In this document: one piece after another, positions 3,598 through 24,800 of the stretch
Numbering within the stretch: position 1 is the stretch's first letter
Layout of the letters: every line of letters begins with the position of its first letter
NCBI GenBank assembly: GCA_009869945.1
Contig: WIXG01000103.1
Location: 124,001 to 188,000, forward strand
Length of the DNA stretch: 64,000 nucleotides
Source of the DNA: Mesaphorura yosii
Taxonomy: Eukaryota; Arthropoda; Collembola; Poduromorpha; Tullbergiidae
Direction of reading: 5' to 3'
The notes under the pieces: model-generated
Seen by the model: only the letters and a program-made list of their open reading frames with translations
The model's database searches: none
What the model was told of the DNA's origin: nothing
Translations under genes and position numbers: made by a program

Positions 3598-4830
3598 TCA
3601 GTACACTTTAACTTTATCAAGTTGTCTGAGAGTAACAAATTGTCTAAACCTCTTCCAATAAATCAGTCCAGCAAGGTAAAGCAACAGCAGACAATGAAAA
3701 ATTGTGTAAAATGCAAATACTGATACGACGCAGGGAACCGGCCATCTTTGCCATGGACGATCCCAGTCGAGGGGAAACGCGATGGCTCCGCACCAGGCAC
3801 CGAATAAAGTTGCAATGAATCGGAACTGAGATCGATAAACCCATTCAATGTTTACGTCCCAGAATCTGCAAGAATACAAAACGCCGACGGTTATTGTAAG
3901 GTCAGAAACGAAAACCAAGCTTTCAGTGTCAAATGCCAAGTCAGGCTAGCTCACCTCATAAATAACACTTCGAAAATGACTGTGGCTGGAGGAACGTTCA
4001 TGCACAATGGAAGAAACAGCCATGTCACAGCAATGAAGCTGAACTGTAAAGTCAGTAGCTTATCCCTGATAGAACAAAAATGCTTTAAAGTAACTTTAGG
4101 TTCTAATCAGTTAAAGTTAAGCTGTGAAACGTACACAAGCACTGGAGCTCCAAACAGAATGATCAAGACATGACCAGCTCCAACCGCCAGCGCAAACATG
4201 AAAATTCCTTTTACGAAGTCCAACACCTGCAGTAAAAGTGAAAGTTGTAAGCCCGTCAATAAAGATTAAAGAATCGTATAGTTCTTGTCTAATTACCTTG
4301 AACAACCAGCTGATTCGATCCATCCCAGTTTCCTGTCGGCTCTGGTCACGAAGGAAGGGCGAGTTATCATCACTGTCGTCATCTTCGTCGACCTTATCAC
4401 TTCTGCCAAACAGGAACGCGCTCTCGTCCCTTCCCCAAATCTTTACACCATCGTATTTTGGAATTTCTCGATAGCCTTCCTCTTCTGCGTCTTCAAACTC
4501 ATCATGCCCACCTAAGCCTTTGCCGCCTAGCTCGATACTGACTCTCCTCCGTTCCATTAAACTCGTGCCGGACACGTTTGACAAGGGGTACATGACCCTG
4601 ACTAGCCCAACTTTGAAGAGCTCCACGGATCCAACGTACACAAGTAAATACGTTGGCAATTCTTCTTTCTGTTTAACGTACTCGACGAGATCAAAATCAT
4701 TGACGAACCAAAATGCAGGCATTAAACTGTTTGCAATCAACGATAAGAGGCAGTAGGTAAATTCACGCTTCCGATGAAAATCTTTGATGAAAATGTCTTC
4801 ACGAGACTCGAGGCCATTGTTGTAGTCCAT
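3598..4830 (-). CDS. PIGF: PIG-F-like GPI ethanolamine-phosphate transferase stabilising subunit
   Basis: PIG-F is an ER membrane protein that stabilises PIG-O and PIG-G, the enzymes adding ethanolamine phosphate to the GPI anchor. Exons 4297-4830, 4135-4226, 3955-4065 and 3598-3865 join in phase to 334 residues. The diagnostic C-terminal block is FGAWCGAIAFPLDWDRPWQR followed by WPVP, matching the family signature GA-x-PLDWDRPWQ-x-WP. The block FVKGIFMFALAVGAGH then ILFGAPVL matches the third transmembrane region. The N-terminal exon has two hydrophobic segments (about residues 25-43 and 60-82), as in PIG-F. It then has an insert of about 90 residues rich in Asp and Glu (for example DEDDDSDD) that the human protein lacks. 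The splice between exons 2 and 3 uses GTACGT, the only donor that keeps frame. The start is the only ATG ahead of the first hydrophobic segment. No alignment was run. Confidence 0.85.
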
Positions 4831-21812: not shown

Positions 21813-24800
21813 TTATCCTTCGCGTTCTTTCTTCACTTTTGCACTTTCTCGACTGTCTCCAGCCTCGCCGAGAATTGTTGCGATTTCGTTTTGCATAAAC
21901 GCCCAAGGAACCGTGCTCTGAAATGGGAAATAAGAAAATCAGTATATTGGCCCAATTCCTCCTAATTAATTACTAATTTGCTTACCCCCGCGAGTGGACA
22001 CTTTTCGCCGCTGGGGCAGTAAACTTCGGCTCCTGCACCTGCAATGAACAAATAAGTAGGCAAATATAAAAATCCAGAGTATTGTTTATAGCTTCTTGTT
22101 CAGTCATGATTTGTTTGTTTGTACTAAATTGTTTGCACAACATTGTTCTTATTACTTCATTTGGCTTAGAACAACGTCAAGCACTACCACATTTACCTTA
22201 AAATCAGTTTCTTTGTCAAAAGTTGTAAAAAATGGCGACCCGAGAGAATAAGAAAATATTGAACAAAGTATTCGGGTTTAGTGATTCGGAATCCGAACCT
22301 GAAAAAGTAACCGCTGGAACTGGCGACGAACCAAGGATAGGAAAACTTTCAACCACCGTTCATGAAACCGTAAATGCTGACTCCCCTCCGCGAAAAAAAC
22401 ACAACACAAGAACGAAGTGCACAAAGTGAGAAATGTGTGGTCATACTTTCCACATCAAGATATGAAGATATTATCGAAGCTATTCAACTAATTAAGGCAC
22501 CTGAGAGGATTAAACTTACAGCTGAACTTTCTACACCCAAAGAACAGACTTCATCTACTGAATCGAGCGTTGACACAAGGCTAGCTAAGGTTCGGCAGTG
22601 GGATTCTGAGACCGGTGATCCAATATTGGAAGACCCCGCAAAACGTAGGGCATTTTTGAGGATAAAAAACCGATTATTTGCTAGCGAAACTATTATAGAA
22701 ATTTTGCCTTACAGCATGGGTGCGATATGTACCACCAGACTTCACACAGCAGCGAGCTCATCCAAGGCTGAATTTACAAAAGTCGAGAGGCAACTAATTC
22801 AGCGCTTCAAAACTCAAATGGAGAGTAACGAGAGGAAGTTCGTTAGAATTTCGGGCGACTACAGTACTCGGAGCGGCCTCGAGAATAAGTTTCTTCGGCG
22901 AATTTTGTCGTCACATAAAGAAAATTCACATACAGAGGAACCTGATCGGCGGTTTTACCCAATTCAATGTGAAAAAACTAAGTGAAATGTTAAAGCCTTA
23001 TTCAGAATTTCCTGGTGGTGGTGAAGAGCCGTCTCTTCGTTGCCCACAATTATCTGTGGGACAAGGCAAGTATACTAGTATTAAAAACTACCACAAGAAG
23101 AATCAAATATAAACTAAGTATTCTGAATCGTTATGACTTCAGGACTCGTGGCTCTAATCAATGAAAATGCTCAGTACGGTAATTATGGACCCGGGACATT
23201 TTGGTGCCGACATCATAAATGCCTCAATCGAGACATCGTGATAGCGTCATCAAAAGTTGACTACGGTTCTGAGCCGAAGATTACTCTCACCAAAAGATTC
23301 ACCTGTGCAACTCCGAACGTTGTCTACATGCTTCATTTTACAGCATGTCAAGAAACGGGCGAGTACTCTGTCCACGTGGGATCGACGAATGATTTGCACC
23401 ATCGTATTTCGCAACACATTGACCCAAAAGAGACAAACAGAACAGCTAAGAGGCAAAAATATTCAGAACAAATCCACGAGTGCATCGCAAATCACACTGA
23501 CCCAGACAATTTTAGACCTGACTCTCATTCATTTCTCGTTCGAGTACAAACAAGCAGGCCGTGCTATCGCCAGGGTCACGATTTTGCAGAAGCTTTCTCC
23601 CAATGACCACCCAAGAACAATTGAAGATTCATTCAAGAGTCAAACTGGTGAATATGATTACAAGGGTTTCGGACGTGGAAGACTCAACGCACACGGCGGA
23701 AAATTTCATATCGTATACAATTCGGACTTATGATTTGCCAATTTACCGTAATTCGTTATTATAGTCAAACCGTAATGTTTCATTATACCGTTGTTTTACG
23801 TTAAGTACTTTGTAACCTGTATTAAAACTTTCTTTGTAACCTAGAATTAAACTCACCTTGACGCTTAATCGATTGCCTTGAACAGGGGAAGCAGAATTTG
23901 TGGTTTGGTACAGAAGGACATTGAACAAAATGAGTATCCTCAAGTCTCTCTTGACACAACGTGCATTTCAACGCGTTGGACACAGGATCTGCTGTGCCGT
24001 TCCCCTCGGTTGAGGTCGGAGGTGTGCTTCCGTGTCGAGAAGACGATCCTGATGGGCGACGACTCACTACAATGACAATCAAACAGAAGTCATTAGACTT
24101 GAAGGTTCATTAATCCGGTAAAACATCTCCGTCCACAGAAGCGTGCCAACCTCCTGAGTTCGAAGTATTCATACAAAAATTGCTGACTGAAACTGAATTC
24201 CTGGCGGTGATTACTCAAGAATTGAGCTGAATTTAACGAATTGTCAAAAAATTATCGGAAATGTGCTCTCAAAAACGCTGAAACAAGAAGAATCAGAATG
24301 GAAGATTCTCATTTGTCATCACTGCATTTTACATTCTTCATTATTATTATCAACCATTGAAACTCTACTCCACCTTAAAATGCCAAAAATCGCGCTTTGA
24401 TAAATTCACTGCATTCTTCAGCTAAGTCGGCTTACATCAATTGTAAGAAAGTACGCGATGTGTGCATGTGCGAATATAAGCCTCGTCAACAATTTACGTT
24501 TAATCGAGAGGTAAGCACAATTCTAAACTGCTTCTGAAGTTCTGACGAAGTACATCACAATCTGGATCTTACCATTTGTTGTTGTAATGCTTCCTTGCTT
24601 GGAGTACAAAGCAGACGTGTCAAATGATGCTGTGCGAAGTGGTTTATCTTTGCTAATGTTTAATCCGGCATCGACACCGCTTGGAAGACTCTCGCCTCTT
24701 GACAGTGATGGACGACTCGCCGACGACTCCCCGTCCAAGACAACTCTGTCGAAAGAGAAAGAAACATCACAAAATTATTGAGACTGAAGACGGACATCGA

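Follow-up and report, generated by a model that had tools for sequence, protein, structure and literature searches.

A broken GIY-YIG-like nuclease gene in an IRF2BP intron of Mesaphorura yosii is probably a fossil of a selfish element whose family is found in spliceosomal introns

An intron of the IRF2BP gene of the collembolan Mesaphorura yosii holds, on the opposite strand, a stretch that resembles a nuclease gene, which raises the question of whether this gene serves the host or is what remains of an element. The locus lies in a 64,000-nucleotide stretch of contig WIXG01000103.1 (positions 124,001 to 188,000), referred to here as the window. The original prediction described a nested antisense GIY-YIG endonuclease-like gene that was either domesticated or free-standing, or else the remnant of an element. 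The exon and intron limits of the window copy were obtained from alignment with its relatives, and frame breaks were called by eye. The features of the locus are as follows.

22039..23856, minus strand: IRF2BP intron of 1818 bp enclosing the entire nuclease copy; splice sites from sequence
23857..24106, minus strand: IRF2BP coding stretch 5' of the intron, with a RING-like zinc finger (PF25454, E = 1.2e-17, in the 23822-24106 frame)
22107..22145, plus strand: TTTGTTTGT...AAATTGTTTG motif 5' of the nuclease start codon, with similar ones ahead of many copies
22232..22644, plus strand: nuclease exon 1, with a frame break near 22400
22645..22714, plus strand: nuclease intron 1, GT-AG, its position shared by 14 copies including this one
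22715..23065, plus strand: nuclease exon 2 (WVRYVP...FLRRIL...), with frame breaks near 22757 and 22915
23066..23142, plus strand: nuclease intron 2, GC-AG in this copy; three aligned relatives have a GT donor
23143..23733, plus strand: nuclease exon 3, with a Cys cluster and the GIY-YIG-like domain; frame break near 23531
23846..23851, plus strand: ATTAAA resembling a poly(A) signal, within the IRF2BP intron and 5 nt from its 5' splice site

When the IRF2BP flanks were joined, the IRF-2BP C3HC4 domain was restored across the junction (13-68 of 68 matched, Pfam E = 7.4e-27), confirming that the nuclease gene (22232-23733, plus strand) is nested antisense to IRF2BP. The enclosed copy also accounts for the size of the intron, and the alignment with relatives recovered the predicted introns of the nuclease gene itself, one of them of the GC-AG type. 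In exon 3 of the window copy, VVYML, HVGST and the Arg share one frame and IED and GRLN lie in another; this second frame, which holds the Glu and GLN motifs, extends the domain to about 23700. The stop codon of the family is missing, and the frame stays open to 23733. With at least four frame breaks and the loss of the family stop, the window copy is a pseudogene. We infer a promoter role for the TTTGTTTGT...AAATTGTTTG motif. Two 24-nt tandem units (CTTTGTAACCT...), 75% alike, lie beside the IRF2BP donor (window 23808-23855). The IRF2BP copy is a relic without evident host function.

The identity of the encoded protein was evaluated using profile searches and the order of its motifs. GIY-YIG nucleases carry, in order, the Tyr of GIY, the YIG motif, an Arg, a Glu and an Asn. 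The predicted core, with a Cys cluster upstream, is present in exon 3 and its motifs are common to the family, in the order GTFWCR...C, VVYM.HC..C...G.Y..HVGST, Arg, IEDKFKR, GLGRGGLN and stop. The profile check did return a GIY-YIG match for the window peptide, but at 18.4 bits (E = 0.0026) it stayed below the Pfam cut-off of 22.6. PF01541 matched 8 of 14 family members at E < 1, with a best value of 2.2e-4, and both L007, the most nearly intact of ten other copies with printed frames, and the window scored under the curated cut-off. VVY and the Arg are nearly invariant, and the Glu and GLN are found in most alignment rows extending that far, but the position of the YIG Tyr holds His in 13 of the 14 members aligned and Arg in the other. 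A VVY...HVG-type core was detected in 23 of 31 copies scanned with a pattern whose YIG position admits no residue but His or Arg, and the His count was therefore taken from the alignment. For the nuclease, PDB searches by sequence and by profile, NCBIfam and PHROGs gave no significant match, and hhalign comparison with two T4 nucleases (SegA and SegF) was not significant. The sub-threshold profile scores and the motif order suggest that the enzyme was likely a DNA-cutting, GIY-YIG-like nuclease. The N-terminal half had no significant match in Pfam or PDB, and the proposal of a new domain combination stands only to that extent.

The genome assembly (93.0 Mb, 1127 contigs) was then searched for copies. 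The window peptide 23130-23603 gave 49 matches, corresponding to the window and 38 other places after merging by hand, with identities of 26-59% and a best E of 3.8e-49 outside the window. The full exon 3 of L007 gave 80 matches at E ≤ 0.01, merged by hand into 52 places on 43 contigs, and the N-terminal half of the nuclease gave 33 matches. So many dispersed matches indicate a repeat family rather than a single gene. Copies in other genes had escaped the original prediction, which missed the dispersal of the family in introns of many of them.

The three-exon structure is seen in the frames of ten other copies and, in 14 copies, in the DNA where the frame first breaks. The protein is roughly 420-450 amino acids long and the whole element about 1.8-2 kb. 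Intron 1, whose position is common to 14 copies including the window, has an AAAC|GTAAGT-like donor and ...CAG|C(A/G)TGG at the acceptor; in some copies these splice sites have decayed. Intron 2 could be aligned in four copies, three relatives with a GT donor and the window with GC. None of the ten other copies with printed frames has three intact exons; L007 comes nearest, its frame being broken in exon 1, and exons 1-2 are absent from L010, L011 and L017. Together with the broken window copy, this argues against a domesticated gene and in favor of the remnant of an element, and a single domesticated gene was rejected because many copies are broken. Comparison between copies gave pN < pS in 104 of 104 pairs, and dN/dS was 0.11-0.43 where estimable among the 25 closest pairs, dS being mostly near saturation. 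DNA likeness between copies is almost limited to the element; the exceptions are 150 bp upstream of L009 and L014, which share one contig, and 56 bp downstream of L004 and L017. Searches by DNA and by pattern for relatives lacking the gene added no place to the 52, and one L007 peptide, a query that reaches close relatives only, found no relative in phages, viral_contigs or genome_contigs. One locus (L034) holds two copies of opposite orientation about 3 kb apart (682-1155, minus; 3782-4337, plus).

Host flanks were read for 34 of the 52 places, with the splice sites of host introns read from sequence alone. For each copy the splice search offers numerous candidates, and acceptance of a host required either a Pfam or PDB match or reading by eye. 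Both flanks could be resolved for 20 copies; every one of these is contained in a host intron, and joining the flanks restores host reading frames. In 14 of them a Pfam or PDB match crosses the junction, as for IRF2BP (window; Pfam), SH3/MAGUK (L002), CUB (L003, crossing by only about 6 residues), LIM (L008), TRRAP (L013), CDS (L028), alpha-actinin (L023, E = 5.8e-35), Rab3 (L053), UPB1 (L056), RPB1 (L063, E = 9e-37), DNAH6 (L041, E = 1.5e-15), B4GAT (L064), SYDE (L016, E = 1.1e-5, below its cut-off) and myosin (L004, sense). For six others both flanks were read partly by eye: HDAC-like (L006, both flanks by eye, joined peptide without a Pfam match), neuroglian-like (L010, both flanks by eye, without a Pfam or PDB match), nAChR (L012, acceptor flank by Pfam, joined peptide and donor-side ORF without a Pfam match), Rab1 (L015), LRR (L055, both flanks by eye, without a Pfam match) and cadherin-like (L049, sense, LamG exon by Pfam).

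Seven further copies have a recognizable host exon on one side, bringing the copies with an identified host to 27 of 34: NHR2 (L007), ion channel (L014, joined peptide without a Pfam match), CBM_14 (L017), cation ATPase (L020), PDZ (L022, host exon about 800 nt off), myosin (L027, exon by eye) and CUB (L077). These seven are likely intronic as well. No host was assigned to the remaining 7 of 34, L005, L009, L011, L018, L019, L034 (682-1155) and L059. The hosts are mostly unrelated, with the same family recurring as two MAGUKs, two Rabs, two CUB proteins and myosin twice. What seems to be one muscle myosin heavy chain gene on contig C8 carries two copies (L027 and L004/L032) about 10 kb apart, one antisense, by eye, and one sense.

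Relative to the host, 25 of 27 copies are antisense and two are sense (L004 in myosin, L049 in the cadherin-like gene), an excess with a two-sided binomial probability of about 6e-6 by hand; an interim count of 20/21 had given 2e-5. A donor-like site on the opposite strand lies past the stop codon in many copies. Pfam matched 8/10 joined peptides in one set and 6/8 in another. Host-strand ORFs or joined peptides had Pfam matches in 4/10, 3/10 and 3/10 cases (10/30), compared with 2/10 sense-strand control ORFs (the sense host of L049 and a carnitine acyltransferase in L064), making annotation alone a weak test of strand. The carnitine acyltransferase-like frame (L064 1-516) is on the opposite strand, beyond the host exon of B4GAT, and was taken as a neighboring gene. 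Codon usage scored the host strand above the sense strand in 25 of 32 loci, four of them in the training set, and it called L049 wrongly.

How the copies came to lie in introns was assessed from intron lengths and element ends. The 16 host introns measured span 423-2239 bp, of which 12 (1768-2239 bp) are little longer than the element; the short introns of the UPB1, RPB1 and B4GAT hosts contain only part of the nuclease gene. The complement of AATAAA or ATTAAA occurs within the first 50 nt of 8/16 host introns, against 6.8% of random window stretches and 2/22 AGGTRAG donor-like sites (p = 3e-5). Toward the acceptor, copies repeatedly show CCAAT-like and TTTGTTTGT motifs, and arrays of TTTGTTTGT and CTGATTGG lie 5' of the start codon in many copies (L007 435-510, L009 300-450, and the copy 5' end in L028). 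By BLAST, the DNAH6 and NHR2 copies (L041 and L007) are alike at both element ends. The 5' end of L007 is 85% identical to the DNAH6 copy and 88% to the UPB1 copy, the likeness beginning 13 nt and 10 nt, respectively, from the host acceptor. The likeness of the DNAH6 copy's 3' end to L007 runs until 13 nt short of the DNAH6 donor; to the UPB1 copy this end is alike by BLAST only in its earlier part, whereas multiple alignment and inspection by eye place the element end of UPB1 near the UPB1 donor. The DNAH6 and UPB1 host introns both start with GTTAGTG.

These ends bear on the best-surviving alternative, an autonomous introner, in which the element itself creates the host intron and its ends supply donor, branch point and acceptor. 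In most full-length copies the intron is about as long as the element, no more than 26 nt of the DNAH6 intron lie outside the element, and the UPB1 intron, with likeness starting 10 nt from the acceptor and a donor end close by multiple alignment and eye, probably has no more, which favors either intron creation or later loss of the old intron. In contrast, roughly 150-190 nt of other intron lie on the acceptor side of L007, which, together with the two sense copies in the myosin and cadherin-like genes, favors insertion into existing introns, and donor sequences vary between copies. The Rab3 host intron is 4 nt and one phase off the intron of two Rab paralogues. We put insertion into existing introns first and regard the autonomous introner as rather unlikely; the element may perhaps have made some of the introns.

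Conventional hallmarks of transposons were also sought. The assembly has 22 RVT_1 matches, none adjoining a copy and the nearest on a shared contig (C43) 16 kb off, in line with the predicted lack of a nearby reverse transcriptase. No Rfam match, hammerhead included, was found in 12 loci, and no consistent long terminal repeats in four regions scanned. Short inverted repeats occur in single copies and none is common to those four regions, where the copies are old and their ends uncertain; for the same old copies and uncertain ends, no target-site duplication was seen by eye. As the copies retain the nuclease introns, copying from spliced mRNA was rejected.

We consider it quite unlikely that the family is a degenerate Penelope-like retroelement that lost its reverse transcriptase and was moved by one from elsewhere, a route in which introns could be retained. 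The Cys cluster followed by NVVY..C..C...G is an arrangement that we take to resemble Penelope endonucleases, and the absence of exons 1-2 from some copies (L010, L011, L017) would fit. On the other side, RVT_1 adjoins no copy, the 12 loci and four regions searched gave neither Rfam matches nor consistent long terminal repeats, the N-terminal half matches nothing significantly, and a PF01541 search, of low sensitivity with split genes, found one sub-threshold place, itself a family member. In the available text of two papers, Penelope likewise combines a GIY-YIG nuclease with an intron-retaining eukaryotic mobile element but carries a reverse transcriptase (PMC3846280, PMC1564403), which was not found beside the family copies; Penelope is described as able to keep introns (PMC3846280). 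That these are nested host genes of an ordinary kind, serving the host and multiplied by segmental duplication, is highly improbable. Such a family would have its own introns and promoter-like motifs and mostly synonymous divergence in its favor, but the hosts are mostly unrelated, the window copy is disrupted, the ten others printed include no intact one, and DNA likeness nearly confined to the element makes segmental duplication an unlikely source of the copies.

The locus is therefore best explained, with a probability of roughly 0.7, as a fossil copy of a selfish nuclease element whose family colonized spliceosomal introns and which, on the best reading, is extinct or nearly so. The 52 places, the retained introns, pN < pS in every pair and the lack of adjoining RVT_1 speak for it; the absence of a common inverted repeat, of a target-site duplication and of any intact copy seen, the His in place of the YIG Tyr in 13/14 and the sub-cut-off GIY-YIG scores speak against it. 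The nuclease would have cut chromosomal DNA, the element would have been copied in as the cut was repaired, and copies would have persisted where the host spliceosome removes them. Such cutting and repair-copying into spliced introns would explain spread without a reverse transcriptase, retention of introns, dispersal and decay of copies. The antisense bias could reflect selection against poly(A) and splice signals on the sense strand, or a directional target near the 5' splice site. The element may have spread while its protein was under selection and decayed afterwards. A transposable element purged from exons would likewise be found in introns. Since no intact copy was seen, the activity of the element is putative.

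Among known systems, the shintrons of mirusviruses appear to be the closest published parallel, judging from the available text of PMC12768974, which states that an association of nucleases with spliceosomal introns was previously unobserved. Like the family, shintrons place nuclease genes, GIY-YIG among them, within GT-AG spliceosomal introns of protein genes and are without group I or II intron signatures (PMC12768974). By the splice sites read, the defining arrangement of a nuclease gene inside a GT-AG intron appears in 20 of 34 copies, 14 of them with a junction match. Compared by description, shintrons reside in the genomes of viruses, where they concentrate on virion genes and have gene-specific targets (PMC12768974), whereas the family occupies many genes of a nuclear animal genome, is mostly antisense and has an intron-split nuclease gene. 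Introners resemble the family as related introns in unrelated genes but are described as derived from non-autonomous elements, with autonomous partners sought via a transposase database; the available text never uses the word endonuclease, and only two groups of animals are reported to carry introners (PMC9860276). Group I introns of nuclear rDNA, in the part of PMC9548176 available, also carry intronic nuclease genes, one of them antisense, polyadenylated and with a spliceosomal intron within, but they are self-splicing, occupy one rDNA site and encode His-Cys nucleases of demonstrated activity.

Tentatively, the family may go further and represent an autonomous mobile spliceosomal intron of an animal nucleus, a possibility that we doubt more than we favor: a GIY-YIG element that would spread by its own nuclease, form or take over introns of unrelated genes, and leave small derivatives such as those in UPB1, RPB1 and B4GAT. 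A literature search, covering few subscription papers, found no cellular or animal counterpart. The origin and spread of introns is an old open question, and this nuclease-coding family, repeatedly found within introns of different animal genes, offers loci at which intron gain can be weighed against colonization. If true, this reading would carry spliceosomal homing introns beyond viruses, into animals.
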